Notes under the pieces: generated by a model
The model's database searches: none
Told to the model about the DNA's origin: nothing
What the model saw: the letters and a program-made list of their open reading frames with translations, nothing else
DNA from: Alcaligenaceae bacterium
GTDB lineage: Bacteria; Pseudomonadota; Gammaproteobacteria; Burkholderiales; Burkholderiaceae_B
NCBI GenBank assembly: GCA_029268595.1
Contig: JAJUGB010000005.1
Coordinates: 1-43,087, forward strand
Reading direction: 5' to 3'
DNA length: 43,087 nucleotides
Made by a program: the position numbers and the translations under genes
In this document: positions 28,535 to 34,261 of the stretch, one piece after another
Layout of the letters: each line of letters opens with the position of its first letter
Numbering within the stretch: position 1 is the first letter of the stretch

Positions 28535-28611
28535 GCGGCTGTAGCTCAGTTGGATAGAGTACTTGGCTACGAACCAAGGGGTCGTGGGTTCGAATCCTGC
28601 CAGCCGCGCCA
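28535..28611 (+). tRNA. tRNA-Arg (anticodon ACG)
   Basis: The acceptor arms GCGGCTG and CAGCCGC pair perfectly. The D-arm GCTC/GAGT, anticodon stem CTTGG/CCAAG with loop CTACGAA (anticodon ACG), and T-loop TTCGAAT are all present. CCA is encoded (28609-28611). ACG is normally edited to ICG by TadA to read CGU, CGC and CGA. Confidence 0.97.
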
Positions 28612-28791: not shown

Positions 28792-29457
28792 CTATCGCTG
28801 CGTAATGGAGGCAACGTTGCGATCACCCCATTGCGTAATTGAAGCGGTGTAGCCGCTCGGACGCGATCCCGTTTGCCTGATCGTGGCCTCGTTATTCCAG
28901 CCCTGCTGAGAAATGTGTGCAGTCAGGTTCCTGCCAGACTGAATGATTTCAGCATCGCTGCCATACGAAAGGAACTGAGTGACGGTGGCCACCAGATTGC
29001 CACCATTCCGGCCGGTCGCATTCTGATTGATGGCGACGGTATTCCAGCTTCCGCTTTGGTTGACAGTGGCTGTGGCGTCCCGACCAAGCTGAGTAATTTC
29101 CGCCTCGTTGCCCCAGCCCCAATGCTGCGTTACGCTAGCAGTCAGATTACGATGTTGGGTATTGTTCCAAGAGCCGCCGGCTGCCCCACCCTGATTGATG
29201 ACAACATCGCCGCCACTGGCCGATTGCGACACCCAAGCTTGACTGTTCGAGACGTTAACCTGGTTGATGGTGGCATTGTTGCCCCAGCTTCCTTCTACAG
29301 TGATTCCCGCCCGGGTGTTCTGAACTGAGTCCTGCGTAATGTAGGAAGTATTGTCTTCACCCCTCTGTTCGATAGTCGCACTTACTTGAGCCATCGCGCC
29401 GGTGGCGCCAAATGCCAGGCCAAGGCCCAGCGCTAATGCATGTAACTTGATACTCAT
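28792..29457 (-). CDS. Secreted curlin-repeat (amyloid-like) protein
   Basis: The 221-residue product has a clean signal peptide (cleavage after about residue 23, GAMA-Q). The rest is eight imperfect repeats of about 22-30 residues in the curlin pattern T-A-x-[VI]-x-Q-x-G-x-x-N-x-A-x-I-x-Q, for example VTQHWGWGNEAEITQLG and ISQQGWNNEATIRQTG. The protein ends on a repeat (ASITQR), as CsgA and CsgB do. Gln and Asn ladders of this kind form stacked beta-amyloid in curli. AAGGAG precedes the ATG. No csgE, csgF, csgG or csgD gene is in the window, so secretion partners must lie elsewhere. Whether it is a CsgA- or CsgB-type subunit cannot be told from sequence alone. Confidence 0.85.
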   Translation of the reverse strand: MSIKLHALALGLGLAFGATGAMAQVSATIEQRGEDNTSYITQDSVQNTRAGITVEGSWGNNATINQVNVSNSQAWVSQSASGGDVVINQGGAAGGSWNNTQHRNLTASVTQHWGWGNEAEITQLGRDATATVNQSGSWNTVAINQNATGRNGGNLVATVTQFLSYGSDAEIIQSGRNLTAHISQQGWNNEATIRQTGSRPSGYTASITQWGDRNVASITQR

Positions 29458-29600
29458 CAGCTTCTCCTTACATCGAAGACCGGTATGAATCGCGAGCCCG
29501 GTGGTCTTCTTTCCCGGGTCACCTGCAGCCCCGCTGGCTATCCCCTCTAATTGACCGCATTTATCAAGAGACCGGTATCGGTCGGATTCACCACGACATC
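29458..29600 (-). promoter_or_regulatory. Structured leader of the curlin-like gene
   Basis: The leader holds two mutually exclusive hairpins on the minus strand. One pairs GAAGACC (29503-29509) with GGTCTTC (29475-29481). The other pairs CCCGG (29514-29518) with CCGGG (29497-29501). An AGACCGGTAT sequence appears twice (near 29475 and 29571). I could not match it to a known riboswitch. The rest of the 29458-29838 gap holds only a 14-bp palindrome GGCGGACGTCCGCC (29678-29691). Confidence 0.35.
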
Positions 29601-29838
29601 TTCCCGCAGCTGTTTTGAGTAAGCCGTTTCGGGGCGGGCATAGCTTTAGATCAGGGGTGGATGGAGGACGCTTGAGTGGCGGACGTCCGCCGAACAACCG
29701 GCTGAAGATGAATCAAGGAGCGCGAGGGTCGAATCTCGCGCATCGCGCAGCAGTTGTCTCGCGAGGCGTGCGGCACGGCCGAGTGCTGGAGGAAACGAGG
29801 AAATCGCCGCACAGGAGTGCGGAACCGGCAAAGCCGCT

Positions 29839-31281
29839 TCAGGACTTCAGGCTGCGTATCAGCGTCTTCATCTGCGATAAGTCGTATGCCTCGCGGGCCG
29901 GCATTATCTTCATCAAGATCAAGGACACGACTACGGGCATAAACGCCGCTAGTAAGAAGGACTCTAATAAATAGGCTGGCGTGGCGCCGGGCGCCGGGAA
30001 CAACGCGACGCCAGCAAGCAAGCCCGACAACGTACTGAGCATGGCGATACGGCCGCTATAGCGCCGACTGAACAGGCCGAAAAACACGGGGAATGCGGCC
30101 GCGGAGCAGAACAAGTCGGCCAGGAGAAATAAATAGAGCACGCTGTAGCCCTGCGAGGCCACTATCATTACCGGAACGGCTAAAAGAAAGATCAGCGTGC
30201 GTGACAGCACCATGAGCCTGCCGGTTGATGCGTTGGGGAACAGGCGTCGCCCATCAACCGCTATCAAGCTGGACACTGCGCTGATGGCAGTGTCGGCGCT
30301 GCTCATGACCAAGGCCAGGCCCAAGGGAATCAAGGCTACAGCAAACCAGACCGGCAAGCTGGGCATAATTACGCTAAATAAAGCCACCGAGCTGCCCTCT
30401 CCCCCGCCTTGAGCAACAAAGGCGAGCCCGAACAGGCCCATGATAAAAATCACTGGCGCAACAAACAGGCCGCCTAAAAAGAAGCCTCGTCGCATGGCGC
30501 GGCTAGATTGCGCAGCATAAACGCGCTGCCAGTTGCCCTGATGAAACAGTCCCGTCAGCAAGATGGCCACAAAGAACGTCAGCCCTGCCTTAAGACCCGT
30601 CAGGTTTTTGAGATCCAGCAAGTGCGGCGCATTCTCGTGCAGCCCTTCGACTACGGAGTGCACACCGCCGCTAGCCCTGTAGCCTAAAAAGACCAGTACC
30701 CCCAGCAAAGGCACGATCAAAAGCATCTGCACTTTGTCGGTAAATATCGAGGCCTTGAGTCCGCCGTATGACGTGTATAACAGCGTCGCACCCATTACAA
30801 CGGCAGCGGTCAGCCATAGCGGAATCGGGGCCAAAAGGGTCATGAGTTCGGCAATGGCGGTGATTTCCGCTGTCAGAGTGATGAACATGTAGAAGAGCAT
30901 GATGACCAGGGTCAAACCGTACATACCGCGGCCATAGCGTGAAATAACGTACTCTGTGAGCGTGTGACCTTCGGGAATCAGTTCTCGCATCCGGCGTCCC
31001 AGCGGGATCATTGTCAAACGCGGCGACATGGAGCCCAAGGCGTAGCCGATGACTGCTCCAAGCCCTCCCCAGGTAGCGGCCTGCGCCGGTGCAAACAGGA
31101 TCCAAGCACCAAGCGATGAGGCCAGCAACGTCAGCACCGTCGCCGTCGAGGTCTGGGTATTGCGAGCCACTATGAAGTCTTCAAGACTATCGCTACTGTT
31201 ACGGGCATAAAGCACGCCGGCCAGCGCAAAGCCTGCCGAAAAAAGTACGAGCCACAAAAAGGCTGATGTCGTGTCAAGCAT
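29839..31281 (-). CDS. Sodium:solute symporter (SSS family) under TPP riboswitch control
   Basis: The 480-residue protein has about 13 membrane helices and SSS-family features: an N-terminal DFIVARNTQ-like segment, the conserved AQAATWGGLGAVIGYALG region and FHQGNWQRVYAAQSSRAMRRG. The start ATG at 31279-31281 has GGAGG upstream; the frame is open further but would run into the riboswitch. Because a TPP riboswitch controls it, I infer that it imports thiamin, a thiamin precursor such as hydroxymethylpyrimidine, or a breakdown product. SSS-type ThiV transporters with THI elements have been predicted before by comparative genomics. Substrate not shown. Confidence 0.88.
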   Translation of the reverse strand: MLDTTSAFLWLVLFSAGFALAGVLYARNSSDSLEDFIVARNTQTSTATVLTLLASSLGAWILFAPAQAATWGGLGAVIGYALGSMSPRLTMIPLGRRMRELIPEGHTLTEYVISRYGRGMYGLTLVIMLFYMFITLTAEITAIAELMTLLAPIPLWLTAAVVMGATLLYTSYGGLKASIFTDKVQMLLIVPLLGVLVFLGYRASGGVHSVVEGLHENAPHLLDLKNLTGLKAGLTFFVAILLTGLFHQGNWQRVYAAQSSRAMRRGFFLGGLFVAPVIFIMGLFGLAFVAQGGGEGSSVALFSVIMPSLPVWFAVALIPLGLALVMSSADTAISAVSSLIAVDGRRLFPNASTGRLMVLSRTLIFLLAVPVMIVASQGYSVLYLFLLADLFCSAAAFPVFFGLFSRRYSGRIAMLSTLSGLLAGVALFPAPGATPAYLLESFLLAAFMPVVVSLILMKIMPAREAYDLSQMKTLIRSLKS

Positions 31282-31405
31282 AAATCCTCCGGCCCGGTTC
31301 GGGCAGCAACAATCCATGTCACCCTCGCGTTGCGATCGCGTTGCGAAAGTGCCATGCACAATAAGGAGGAAGGGGGATGGCTTTATGCAGAAGTGCAATA
31401 GGCGA

Positions 31406-31499
31406 TTCCTTCCCTTCGCCGGCATTATCCGGATCAGGTTCTAAGGGTTACCGCGGCTAACCGCAGAATCTCAGCCCATAAAGAGGGCTCCCCCAGGAA
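31406..31499 (-). ncRNA. TPP riboswitch upstream of the SSS transporter
   Basis: Reading the minus strand, the conserved parts are CTGAGA (31469-31474), AACCTGATC (31432-31440), and GGCGAAGGGAA (about 31410-31420). P1 closes with TTCCT (31495-31499) and AGGAA (31406-31410). It lies about 125 bases upstream of the transporter ATG. Between them a TCCTCC (31365-31370) is complementary to the GGAGGA ribosome-binding site (31285-31290), a possible output, though the loop is long. Confidence 0.95.
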
Positions 31500-31508
31500 C
31501 AGCGCCAA

Positions 31509-31558
31509 AGCGTAGCGGGCGTCTGGCTACTTGTCAAATTTTGGCTTCGTGGTATGGT
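31509..31558. promoter_or_regulatory. Divergent promoter pair with overlapping -35 boxes
   Basis: Plus strand: TTGTCA (31531-31536), 16-bp spacer, TATGGT (31553-31558). Minus strand: TTGACA (31532-31537 read in reverse), 17-bp spacer, TACGCT (31509-31514). The two -35 hexamers occupy the same bases on opposite strands. Each predicted transcript begins within a few bases of its TPP aptamer. Confidence 0.7.
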
Positions 31559-31566
31559 ATGCCACT

Positions 31567-31647
31567 GCGACACGGGGTGCCCCCAACTAGGGCTGAGATA
31601 ACACCCGTCGAACCTGATCCAGTTCGTACTGGCGAAGGGATGTCTGC
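31567..31647 (+). ncRNA. TPP riboswitch upstream of the SDR-monooxygenase operon
   Basis: The conserved parts are GGGGTGCC (31574-31581), CTGAGA (31593-31598), AACCTGATC (31611-31619) and GGCGAAGGGA (31631-31640). P1 closes with GACA (31569-31572) and TGTC (31641-31644). The predicted output is translational: ACATGCCTT (31684-31692) can pair either with the SDR ribosome-binding site AAGGCATGT (31704-31712, 9 of 9) or with AAGGGATGT in the 3' side of the aptamer (31635-31643, 8 of 9). Confidence 0.95.
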
Positions 31648-31713
31648 CTTGCCGCATAAGCCCAATCGGGTGGCGGCTCTCATACATGCCTTCGCACGAC
31701 CAAAAGGCATGTC

Positions 31714-32496
31714 ATGAACACTCCAAACACATCAGTCCCACTTAACCAGCAGCTTGTCCTCGTTACGGGCGGGGCGCGCGGGCTGGGCGCCCACCTGGTA
31801 CGCGCCTTCCTGCGGGAAGGCGCCAGAGTCGTAGTCAATTATCTGTCTAGCGAGCAAGCGGCCAAGGAGCTCGTCCGGACGGCGCCGGGCCAAGCCATTG
31901 CCCTTCAAGCGGATGTGTGCGATGCGCAGGCCGTCCAAGCCATGGTCGAACAAGCGCGCACCAAGTTCAACTCGCCCATTACCACCGTGGTCAACAACGC
32001 CTTGCCGCAGTTCTCTTTTAATGGCGACGAGCGACCGCACGCCGAGGAGCTTACCTGGGATCACATGCACCAACAGCTTGAAGGCATAGTCCGGGGCGCC
32101 CTAAATACGACACAAGCGGCGCTGCCGGGCATGAAAGAAGCCCGGTTCGGTCGCATAATCAACGTGGGCACGAACCTTTTCCAGAATCCCGTCGTGCCTT
32201 ACCACGATTACACTGCGGCCAAGGCTGCCCTGCTTTCCTTGACCCGCACACTTGCTCACGACCTGGGCCCCGTGGGGGTGACGGTCAACATGATTTCCGG
32301 TGGCTTGCTGCGCACAACCGATGCTTCGGCGGCGACCCCTGAAGCCGTCTTTGACCTGATCGCCTCCGGCACTCCTCTGCGTCGAGTGACCACACCGGCA
32401 GAGTTTGCCGATTCAGCCTTATTCTTCGCGTCGCCATGGTCGCGCGCGGTGACCGGTCAGAACCTCGTGGTCGACGGCGGCCTCGTCAAGAACTGA
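31714..32496 (+). CDS. SDR-family oxidoreductase, TPP-riboswitch controlled
   Basis: The 260-residue short-chain dehydrogenase has the nucleotide-binding motif VTGGARGLGAHL (about 17-28) and the catalytic YTAAK, and ends DGGLVKN. Two points differ from classical members. The serine 13 residues before the catalytic Tyr is a Thr (NVGTN), and the structural NNAG is NNAL. It will be labelled 3-oxoacyl-ACP reductase by similarity, but TPP control argues against fatty-acid synthesis. Its AAGG ribosome-binding site lies inside a 9-bp hairpin directly before the ATG. The monooxygenase gene follows after 11 bp, so the two probably act in one pathway. Substrate unknown. Confidence 0.92.
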   Translation: MNTPNTSVPLNQQLVLVTGGARGLGAHLVRAFLREGARVVVNYLSSEQAAKELVRTAPGQAIALQADVCDAQAVQAMVEQARTKFNSPITTVVNNALPQFSFNGDERPHAEELTWDHMHQQLEGIVRGALNTTQAALPGMKEARFGRIINVGTNLFQNPVVPYHDYTAAKAALLSLTRTLAHDLGPVGVTVNMISGGLLRTTDASAATPEAVFDLIASGTPLRRVTTPAEFADSALFFASPWSRAVTGQNLVVDGGLVKN

Positions 32497-32507
32497 GAAA
32501 ACAGAAC

Positions 32508-33806
32508 GTGGGCACGCGAACGCTTCATCTGAATTTGTTCATTCTTGGCTGCGGTCATCATCGCGCCGCATGGCGGCACGCCAACTCCCCAGTGGAGCGC
32601 GTCGGCGATATTCGCTACTACGAAGAACTGGCTCAAATCGCCGAGGCAGGTAAGCTGGACGCCATCTTCTTTGCAGACGGCAACTCGGTCGGCAATGTAG
32701 AAGACGGCCCCACGTGGTTCCTTGAACCATTAACTTGCCTGGCCGCCATCAGCCGTGCAACAGAACGCATAGGCCTCATCAGCACGGTTTCCAGTACGTT
32801 CTACACGCCTTTTCATGCCGCACGAATGATGGCGTCGCTGGATCACATCTCTCGGGGACGAATGGGATGGAACGTTGTCACCTCTATGTTTGACGCCGAG
32901 GCACGCAACCATAACTACGAAGCCATGCCCACACACGCACAGCGCTATGCCCGCGCAGAGGAGTTTATTGATGTGGTACTGCGCTTATGGGACTCGTGGG
33001 GCGACGGCGCATTAAGGCAGGATCGTCAGGGGCTTTACGCAGACTCTGGACAAGTATGCGCCATCGACCATCGCGGCGACCATTTCCTGGTGGCCGGCCC
33101 CCTTACTGTGCCTCGGCCGCCGCAAGGGCATCCGGTCCTATTTCAGGCCGGGGCGTCCGAATATGGCCGAGACCTTGCAGCGCGCCGTGCCGAAGCCATT
33201 TACGCGGTTGCGTACGACCTCCCCGCCGCCCAAGCTTACTATCGCGATATAAAGCGACGAGTGAAAGCGGCCGGACGACAAGACCCTGTTCCCATCATGC
33301 CCGGCCTGGTTACTTATGTAGCGTCCACTCAAGCCGAGGCCGAAGCCCGCCAGCAGGAACTTGACGGGCTCCTGCCGCCGGAGGCGTCCTTACGCCAACT
33401 GCAAACGTACATACTGCAGGATTGTTCGGACTGGGAGTTGGACCAGGCAGTGCCGCCCCTGCCCCCCTTGGAGGAGTTCAAGGGGCCAAAGGGCCGTTAT
33501 GCCACCGTTCTGCGAATAATTGAAACCGAAAAGCCCACTGTGCGGCAGCTGTTGGGACGACTTGCAGCCGGGGGCGGACATTGCACCGTTGTGGGCACGC
33601 CGGACCGCATCGCCGACCACATCGAGCACTGGTTTACACATGAAGCCGCGGACGGATTCAACCTTATGCCGCCTTGTTTACCCGAAGGCATCGAAGATTT
33701 TGTGGACCATGTGATTCCAATACTTCAGGCAAGGGGACTATTCCGCCGCGACTACGAGCACACAACGCTACGCGGACATCTAGGACTGAAGCGGCCAAAT
33801 AACTGA
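32508..33806 (+). CDS. NtaA/SnaA/DszA-type flavin-dependent monooxygenase (LLM class)
   Basis: The 432-residue product is a two-component, luciferase-like FMN monooxygenase of the nitrilotriacetate/dibenzothiophene-sulfone type. Visible family segments are LHLNLFILGCGHHRAAWRH at the N-terminus, DAIFFADG, the hallmark GRMGWNVVTS, and QAGASEYGRDLAA. These enzymes need a separate flavin reductase, and none is in the window. GTG 32508 is the likely start, as it gives the family N-terminus; an ATG at 32436 would overlap the SDR gene by 61 bp. Together with the SDR it should be repressed when TPP is abundant, so a thiamin-related N- or S-heterocycle is a reasonable but unproven substrate. Confidence 0.9.
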   Translation: MGTRTLHLNLFILGCGHHRAAWRHANSPVERVGDIRYYEELAQIAEAGKLDAIFFADGNSVGNVEDGPTWFLEPLTCLAAISRATERIGLISTVSSTFYTPFHAARMMASLDHISRGRMGWNVVTSMFDAEARNHNYEAMPTHAQRYARAEEFIDVVLRLWDSWGDGALRQDRQGLYADSGQVCAIDHRGDHFLVAGPLTVPRPPQGHPVLFQAGASEYGRDLAARRAEAIYAVAYDLPAAQAYYRDIKRRVKAAGRQDPVPIMPGLVTYVASTQAEAEARQQELDGLLPPEASLRQLQTYILQDCSDWELDQAVPPLPPLEEFKGPKGRYATVLRIIETEKPTVRQLLGRLAAGGGHCTVVGTPDRIADHIEHWFTHEAADGFNLMPPCLPEGIEDFVDHVIPILQARGLFRRDYEHTTLRGHLGLKRPNN

Positions 33807-33832
33807 GCCCATATAGCGGCGGCGCCGTTCAA

Positions 33833-34261
33833 TTACAGGCGCTCTCCCGGCAATCTGCTCGCCTGCTTCACCCATTCGGTGAACTGCTCGGTGTCCAGCT
33901 TGCCTTCGTAGACGTCCAGGTAGCGTACCTCTTCATGCTTCGATTTACCGGCAGGCATGGGGTCGAGCGACGTCCCTCTGAAAAATGTCACCTTGATATA
34001 TTTAGTGAAGCAATGGAAGCTTAAAAACCAGCTTCCTTCTTCCATTCCATAGAACGGCGAGTTCCACTTGACCGCCTTCTTGACTTCAGGAACGGCTCGT
34101 TCGATAAGGGTATCCAACTTGCGGCCGACCTCGCTTTTCCAGCCCGGCATGGCGGCAATATAGGCCTGCACGGGTTCGTTACCATACCCTTTGGGAATTT
34201 GAGGATTGCCGCCCGATAAAAGAACCGGCTCTGCGGACGGGTCCGACTTTTTACTTGCCAT
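33833..34261 (-). CDS. DUF1801 domain protein
   Basis: The 142-residue product has the DUF1801 (YdhG-like) core: YIAAMPGWKSEVGRKLDTLI, the KKAVKWNSPFYG motif and a segment with CFTKYIKVTFFRG. The fold is related to the iron-chaperone frataxin-like/YdhG group, but no function is established for this branch. The N-terminal 25 residues are charged and probably disordered. It is convergent with the monooxygenase gene, with 26 bp between the stops. Confidence 0.87.
   Translation of the reverse strand: MASKKSDPSAEPVLLSGGNPQIPKGYGNEPVQAYIAAMPGWKSEVGRKLDTLIERAVPEVKKAVKWNSPFYGMEEGSWFLSFHCFTKYIKVTFFRGTSLDPMPAGKSKHEEVRYLDVYEGKLDTEQFTEWVKQASRLPGERL

Follow-up and report, generated by a model that had tools for sequence, protein, structure and literature searches.

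We analyzed a stretch of 43,087 nucleotides from an Alcaligenaceae bacterium (GenBank assembly GCA_029268595.1, contig JAJUGB010000005.1), referred to below as the window. The subject of this report is a divergent locus in this window, in which a gene for a Na+/solute symporter on the minus strand diverges from genes for a short-chain dehydrogenase/reductase (SDR) and a luciferase-like monooxygenase (LLM) on the plus strand, and in which each of the two leaders contains a thiamin pyrophosphate (TPP) riboswitch aptamer. The features of the locus are as follows.

29839-31281, minus strand: SSS (SSF) Na+/solute symporter gene, 480 aa (open reading frame; Pfam SSF 68.3 bits, cut-off 22.8)
31282-31393, minus strand: predicted expression platform in the symporter leader, with the Shine-Dalgarno sequence GGAGGA paired with UCCUCC (RNA folding, pair probabilities 0.63-0.84)
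31394-31504, minus strand: TPP aptamer of the symporter gene (Rfam RF00059, full length, 79.1 bits, E 3.9e-14 in the window)
31509-31537, minus strand: promoter-like site of the symporter gene, TTGACA-17-TACGCT (read by eye)
31531-31558, plus strand: promoter-like site of the SDR-LLM operon, TTGTCA-16-TATGGT, of the extended -10 type with TG before the -10 box (promoter scan)
31563-31657, plus strand: TPP aptamer of the SDR-LLM operon (Rfam RF00059, full length, 70.4 bits, E 5.5e-12 in the window)
31680-31717, plus strand: predicted SDR expression platform, the hairpin UCAUACAUGCCUU / AAGGCAUGUCAUGA, in which the ribosome-binding site is enclosed together with the start codon of the SDR gene (predicted folding)
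31714-32496, plus strand: SDR oxidoreductase gene, 260 aa (adh_short_C2 169.8 bits; NCBIfam PRK08642/NF006393 431.7 bits, cut-off 292)
about 32508-33806, plus strand: gene for an LLM-class, flavin mononucleotide (FMN)-dependent monooxygenase of the NtaA/DmoA family, 432 aa (TIGR03860 517.3 bits, cut-off 279.7)

The SDR and LLM genes are separated by 11 bases, the LLM start being a GTG at about 32508 inside a longer open frame that begins at 32436. Reading frames and family matches agreed on the gene order, and RF00059, which has a gathering score of 54.3 bits, matched complete aptamers back to back on both strands; an earlier note on this DNA, made from the sequence alone, was thus correct on both points. 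The conserved TPP core CUGAGA / ACCC / GAACCUGAUCC / GGCGAAGGGA is visible in both RF00059 alignments. The E-values and the recurrence of the arrangement in other genomes, described below, show that the two aptamers are not chance matches. A whole-genome Rfam scan of the source genome (G000; 3.14 Mb, 267 contigs, 90.8% complete) found no third TPP aptamer. Another LLM from this enzyme family, 42% identical, is encoded elsewhere in the genome (C85:3055-4362); it is not near a TPP aptamer, as both aptamers found lie in the window's contig (C5).

The earlier note had also reported promoters for both directions. The plus-strand site was the sole one listed by the promoter scan, with 0.2 expected in shuffled sequences, whereas the minus-strand site, read by eye from TTGACA at 31537-31532 and a weak TACGCT at 31514-31509, was absent from that listing. 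The -35 boxes of the two promoter-like sites overlap, and at the predicted promoter positions each aptamer would begin within a few bases of its transcription start. Leader folding was computed for the window locus. The arms of the predicted SDR hairpin, ACAUGCCUU and AAGGCAUGU, are lengthened by pairing of UCAU with AUGA; the 86-nt segment 31645-31730 had a z score of -3.2, with 0 of 200 shuffled sequences equally stable, and the stability of the whole 150-nt leader (31563-31712) was not unusual (z -1.3). A part of the 5' side of this hairpin, CAUGCCUUCGC, can alternatively pair with GCGAAGGGAUG of the aptamer core at 10 of 11 positions, at a predicted ligand-free energy of -54.3 versus -57.5 kcal/mol; binding of TPP would occupy the aptamer core and leave the SDR hairpin free to close. 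In the predicted fold of the symporter leader, the UCCUCC partner sits upstream of GGAGGA. Since the ribosome-binding sites are predicted to be hidden, both leaders are most simply read as translational OFF switches.

To follow this arrangement beyond the window, relatives of the LLM were collected from one genome per species using an alignment of seven LLMs as the query, and the best 80 of 494 relatives (63 to 79% identity) were kept as named loci. These were picked by LLM similarity and not by riboswitch, and they derive from Alcaligenaceae, Comamonas, Marinobacter, Halomonas, Oceanimonas, Oceanisphaera, Marinomonas, Pseudochrobactrum, Rhizobium, Rhodococcus, Nocardiopsis, Kocuria, Arthrobacter, Nesterenkonia, Brevibacterium, Corynebacterium, and others. 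A TPP aptamer was present at 78 of these 80 loci, and in 66 of them it lies on the same strand within 700 nt before the SDR(-LLM) genes, so that the arrangement which the earlier note had proposed to search for was indeed recovered widely. Also among the 80, the aptamer of Pseudarthrobacter locus L086 heads a thiM-thiE-SDR-LLM operon, and 11 Achromobacter loci have an aptamer on the symporter side only; no aptamer was found at L082 (an Azoarcus metagenome-assembled genome [MAG]) and L090 (Carnimonas). Six Achromobacter loci (L041, L043, L050, L059, L084, and L102) and genome G138 (L037) combine the symporter and LLM genes with one aptamer, found on the symporter side, and have no SDR gene directly upstream of the LLM gene; at L059, an SDR relative (69%) is located about 6 kb away.

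In the family of Kocuria (Micrococcaceae), an LLM orthologue with 58 to 75% identity was detected in 38 of 149 genomes, and all 36 of the loci fetched from these carry an aptamer. The order of the window contains 39 genomes, G000 included, with an LLM relative at an E value of 1e-60 or lower among the 300 searched. Only three other LLMs of this order are 73 to 76% identical, the next being at most 50% identical; the loci of all three, like those on Pseudochrobactrum and Rhodococcus plasmids, have TPP aptamers. The aptamers at the 80 named and 36 fetched loci were called with a covariance model built here, which took over from a consensus regular expression that had missed many of them. This model was trained on nine aptamers of this very system, so the scores of such members are flattered. 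Rfam's own model, applied to a subset, found eight aptamers in six of the first nine loci scanned (seven of these eight were used in our model), six aptamers in ten further loci, and at least one TPP aptamer somewhere in each of the 54 LLM-containing genomes introduced below.

A role common to the entire LLM family was rejected: none of 27 loci with LLMs of lower identity carries one (flanks of 1.5 kb, or 6 kb for L036; 26 of the 27 are from one order). Identity alone does not set the boundary, since plasmids of the Bacillota Mesobacillus and Exiguobacterium have the order TPP-SDR-LLM at an LLM identity of about 43 to 50% and an SDR identity of 44 to 47%. In a tree of 126 LLM sequences, from which L108 was excluded as too short, a single branch, supported at 100, separates the 99 orthologues from the other sequences. 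The partnership of SDR, LLM, and aptamer thus spans three phyla, namely, Pseudomonadota, Actinomycetota, and Bacillota. The TPP-linked SDR-LLM module is real and widely conserved, and apparently undescribed. Genes for an osmoprotectant transporter, dihydroorotase, spermidine synthase, and NhaA, which occur near some of the loci, were set aside as local neighbors.

The gene neighborhoods link this module to thiamin metabolism. Of the 116 loci whose neighbors were read (80 named and 36 fetched), eight have thiamin-related genes close by. (i) L086 has the order TPP-thiM-thiE-SDR-LLM. (ii) At L124 and L132, TPP-SDR-LLM is followed by TPP-thiD-MFS-thiM-thiE. (iii) L145 has TPP-SDR-thiM-thiE, with the LLM gene nearby under a second TPP aptamer. 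(iv) At L131, thiD is close by with its own TPP aptamer. (v) TPP-led genes for a YkoE-type energy-coupling factor (ECF) transporter adjoin at L128 and L130, and a further TPP-led ECF set is found at L133. In addition, the LLM stop codon is followed after 96 nt by the start of a thiG gene in Marinobacter ELB17 (L066, genome G317), and thiG occupies the same place in M. gelidimuriae (L067). The SDR gene also occurs without a neighboring LLM gene, as the fourth gene of a TPP-thiM-thiE-thiD-SDR operon, in four of five such plasmid loci read (Neorhizobium, Gemmobacter, and two from Rhizobium). SDR orthologues were therefore seen beside an LLM gene or within thiM-thiE-thiD operons headed by a TPP aptamer, although NCBI names this SDR as a fatty-acid enzyme. 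In several genomes looked at, tenA is under TPP control. The earlier note had seen no thiamin biosynthesis gene and had therefore pictured a separate salvage branch. No thiM, thiE, thiD, or other thi gene was indeed found in the stretch read around the window locus, and elsewhere the pair shares operons or neighborhoods with thiM, thiE, thiD, and thiG. These sequence comparisons give good support to TPP aptamers as part of the locus, to the partnership of SDR and LLM, and to the link with thiamin salvage, and salvage of a thiamin vitamer is very likely the function.

To see which half of thiamin may be concerned, we searched 54 genomes that contain the LLM, namely, G000, its three relatives, and genomes of 50 of the 80 named loci chosen for diversity. 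Matches were found to thiC in 36, to thiG in 51, to the TenA family in 42, to ThiD in 53 (49 of them over the cut-off), and to ThiM in 19, leaving 35 genomes with no ThiM match at 1e-10. Among the 18 genomes without thiC, 16 keep thiG and 17 have a ThiD match. Nine of these 16 lack ThiM, so that a free thiazole alcohol would be unusable by that kinase, and four of the nine also have no TenA-family match better than 1e-20, weaker matches having been treated as doubtful and set aside in this cross table. Candidimonas nitroreducens and Marinomonas algarum have neither a thiC nor a TenA-family match, and Marinobacter ELB17, with thiG behind the pair, has no thiC match. In six of the 18 genomes (G000, G302, G313, G322, G327, and G340), all TPP matches found under stricter filters lie at this locus. 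The combination of missing thiC, retained thiG, and missing ThiM fits an enzyme pair that delivers 4-amino-5-hydroxymethyl-2-methylpyrimidine (HMP), and these gene contents indicate that the pyrimidine half of thiamin is probably the target of the module. G000 itself has ThiD and no match to thiC, thiG, or ThiM, although its sequence may be incomplete. Its TenA-family match is weak (TENA_THI-4, E 3e-11, C108:7570-8127, L173), and similarly weak TENA_THI-4 matches in G138, G305, and G322 may represent a separate subfamily.

On balance, we lean slightly toward the view that the locus salvages the pyrimidine half of thiamin under repression by TPP and that its product is HMP. When TPP is scarce, both leaders would leave the ribosome-binding sites free, and the symporter would import a pyrimidine vitamer. 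The LLM would use O2 and FMNH2, assumed to come from a general flavin reductase (no flavin reductase gene was seen within 29839-34261), and would oxidize the exocyclic CH2 group of a 5-(X-methyl)-4-amino-2-methylpyrimidine, where X would be thiazolium, sulfonate, formamide, or another amine. X would be released, and the SDR would use NAD(P)H to reduce the resulting 5-formyl pyrimidine. The HMP so formed would be used by ThiD and ThiE together with thiazole. TPP bound to the aptamers would stop translation of the transporter and the enzymes. Likely groups X are a sulfonate, as in sulfite-cleaved thiamin, a formamide or amine, as in base-degraded thiamin, and the exchange products of thiaminase.

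The chemistry proposed here draws on the enzyme families. The predicted model of the LLM (pLDDT 91.9) is an LLM TIM barrel with CmoJ/YtnJ, BdsA (DszA type), and NtaA as the nearest folds; TM-scores relative to the query length were 0.86 for CmoJ (6ask) and reached 0.90 for BdsA, at 36 to 38% identity in either case. Enzymes of the NtaA/DmoA type hydroxylate a carbon next to nitrogen or sulfur, or attack sulfones, which splits the C-N or C-S bond and often leaves a carbonyl. A more distant relative, MsuD, is described as cleaving C-S bonds. A number of positions, including M127, D129, Y232, D237, F324, P327, G329, and Y331, are near-invariant among the LLM orthologues and mostly different in the 27 relatives of lower identity, and they are candidates for substrate-recognition residues (L082 and L090 were excluded from this list, and L104 and L080 from the structure alignment). 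We infer the aldehyde route and the order of its steps from these families, and formation by the LLM of an aldehyde that the SDR reduces is a tentative proposal. The earlier note had both enzymes oxidize an imported precursor or damaged thiamin. A TPP-controlled salvage branch does recur far outside the window; as for the SDR, it is more likely to reduce an aldehyde made by the LLM than to perform a second oxidizing step, and its occurrence in thiM-thiE-thiD operons without a neighboring LLM would suit a stand-alone reductase of aldehyde vitamers.

A number of observations weigh against salvage of the pyrimidine half. (i) Most LLM-containing genomes (36 of 54) have thiC, and 35 of these have thiG as well; with thiC in two thirds of the genomes, the pair would be an extra source of pyrimidine and not a strict substitute for ThiC. 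(ii) Loss of thiC, which the earlier note had suggested examining together with the co-occurrence of thiamin genes, is only weakly enriched in LLM-containing genomes. Among members of the family of Kocuria, 29 of 38 genomes with the LLM and 65 of 111 without it lack thiC (Fisher two-sided p 0.054). For the order of the window, the figures are 4 of 18 genomes with the LLM, which were assigned by record title, versus 43 of 296 others (one-sided p 0.28). A simple replacement of thiC is not carried by these tables. (iii) Three of the 16 thiG matches in genomes without thiC are weak: the match contains a stop codon in G342, is broken into two pieces in G344, and is partial in G340, a MAG of 1.4 Mb. 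(iv) A Caballeronia plasmid has an SDR orthologue (L191:6004-6765, 68%) with no LLM gene, thi gene, or aptamer within about 6 kb. (v) thiM is a frequent neighbor in actinobacteria, so that a thiazole substrate or a derivative of whole thiamin would fit too. (vi) A TPP-controlled symporter is also found without SDR-LLM next to it, so that it may carry HMP or thiamin and not the substrate of the enzymes. In the flanks of the actinobacterial loci, no SSS gene was detected. (vii) Two examples are themselves weak: the Exiguobacterium LLM (L197) is split over two frames, and the LLM of Oligella ureolytica (L080:3810-5110, G327) has one in-frame stop in a draft genome, from either a pseudogene or a sequence error.

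Several of these points bear on what else the pair might do. The enzymes could cleave intact but altered, for example oxidized, thiamin, both halves of which would be recovered by ThiM, ThiD, and ThiE. This would account for the thiM and thiE genes adjoining the pair in some actinobacteria, for the thiM-thiE-thiD-SDR operons, and for Pseudochrobactrum G331, which has no thiC or thiG match and carries both TPP-thiM-thiE-thiD and the SDR-LLM pair. The 35 of 54 genomes without a ThiM match, in which the thiazole half could not be reused by the ThiM route, and the retention of thiG in 51 of 54 make it an unlikely explanation overall. The same two counts speak against a service to the thiazole half, in which an altered thiazole, such as a carboxy- or oxidized hydroxyethyl-thiazole, would be returned to 4-methyl-5-(2-hydroxyethyl)thiazole (HET). 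The SDR could reduce thiazole acetaldehyde to HET, and thiM neighbors would agree with this, but thiG behind the pair in two Marinobacter, of which ELB17, the one genome searched, is without thiC, points the other way; we disfavored a thiazole role and consider it improbable. Equally doubtful is the idea that the pair makes HMP with O2 and without ThiC, starting from a metabolite other than a thiamin fragment. The six genomes without thiC whose TPP matches, as far as found, are confined to this locus, and the thiG and ThiD matches in 16 and 17 of the 18 genomes without thiC, speak in its favor, whereas the pair comprises two enzymes only, is linked to an importer in many proteobacteria, and accompanies thiC in two thirds of the genomes. 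That SDR-LLM stands in for ThiC and makes aerobes with thiG and without thiC prototrophic for vitamin B1 from a compound that is not a breakdown product is, for its part, improbable. Finally, the TPP-controlled function could lie outside thiamin salvage, for example in the general use of alkanesulfonates or organic nitrogen or in the detoxification of a thiamin antagonist. Members of the LLM family mainly scavenge sulfur and nitrogen or act on xenobiotics, and the SDR bears the name of a fatty-acid enzyme at NCBI. The recurrence of thiM, thiE, and thiD in operons with the genes of the pair, and the presence of aptamers in three phyla, make such a function very unlikely.

Salvage of the pyrimidine half also calls for an importer. 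The symporter gene was present in the flanks of 42 of the 80 named loci, a count that leaves out one spurious 36-residue match at L082, and in 41 of the 42 it has its own TPP aptamer. Its nearest plasmid-borne relatives (32 to 42% identity) were haloarchaeal in eight of the nine records listed; among these, relatives with 36 to 42% identity lie directly behind tenA in all three loci read and once beside thiD. In the order of the window, the symporter was detected at 1e-40 in 8 of 399 genomes, four of which have no adjoining SDR-LLM. At these four loci, the Rfam model found a TPP aptamer at two, our model a weak one at a third, and none was detected at one; thiC has no match in G009 and G142 and a match in G299, G526 being outside that search. 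The SSS family, the TPP aptamer, and, in its haloarchaeal relatives, the linkage to thiamin genes are all found with this symporter, and it is possibly a pyrimidine importer like ThiV.

In SAR11, an HMP auxotroph, the probable importer of HMP is named as ThiV, a symporter of the SSS family that is governed by a putative TPP riboswitch (PMC11452348). The window symporter resembles it in family and riboswitch and differs in being paired with an oxidative enzyme system. Known salvage of the pyrimidine half, according to PMC10470507, proceeds through TenA_C, TenA_E, and YlmB, which convert 4-amino-5-aminomethyl-2-methylpyrimidine (AmMP) and its N-formyl derivative (FAMP) to HMP. The salvage proposed here would likewise lead from thiamin-derived pyrimidines to HMP, but with an FMN-dependent monooxygenase and an SDR, which belong to unrelated families. 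Both YlmB and TenA are hydrolases. The likeness to the thiMED salvage operon lies in the TPP aptamer and in the same SDR as the fourth gene on the four plasmids named above, whereas the LLM gene adjoins the SDR gene at the window locus and not in those operons. CmoJ/YtnJ, NtaA, EmoA, DszA/BdsA, and DmoA share the fold and family of the LLM, whose orthologues nevertheless form a clade with near-invariant positions of their own; its identity to solved members is 36 to 38%, and its gene context differs from that of nitrilotriacetate monooxygenase and DszA proper. RutA and RcaE, both among the sequence or structural relatives of the LLM, also make a flavin-dependent attack on a heterocycle, uracil and riboflavin, respectively. 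Both of these are catabolic enzymes.

A study that surveyed the TPP regulons of 255 genomes (PMC3766115) assigns the regulated genes to thiamin biosynthesis and transport, with a miscellaneous remainder, and its main text contains the words "monooxygenase" and "oxidoreductase" zero times each. No description of a TPP riboswitch with this enzyme family was found in the open-license papers of PubMed Central, with subscription papers and RegPrecise being outside the scope, and a broader literature search gave no paper with both riboswitch and enzyme-family terms among the matches listed. TPP-controlled vitamer salvage is already known as a kind, and these enzymes appear to be new to it. If the proposal is correct, vitamin B1 salvage gains an oxidative branch, formed by a flavin monooxygenase and a reductase, beside the TenA/YlmB branch. 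It would provide a function for two so far unassigned groups of genes in Pseudomonadota, Actinomycetota, and some Bacillota, one of which, the SDR, now scores above the cut-off of a family (NF006393) that bears the name 3-oxoacyl-ACP reductase. It would also explain the supply of pyrimidine in bacteria without thiC and TenA-family matches, such as Candidimonas nitroreducens and Marinomonas algarum, and would point to an environmental pool of vitamin B1 fragments that may go unmeasured.

Two further observations were made alongside. In Pseudochrobactrum (L033:6001-6975 and L087:6001-6975), a gene for a 324-aa protein is divergent from TPP-SDR-LLM; it is annotated as SRPBCC in L033, where the protein matched neither Pfam nor NCBIfam, and the L087 copy likewise had no Pfam match. 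In the window, an open frame on the minus strand (28792-29697), near a tRNA gene at 28535-28608, contains repeated motifs of the N..A.I.Q type that by eye resemble those of curlin subunits.

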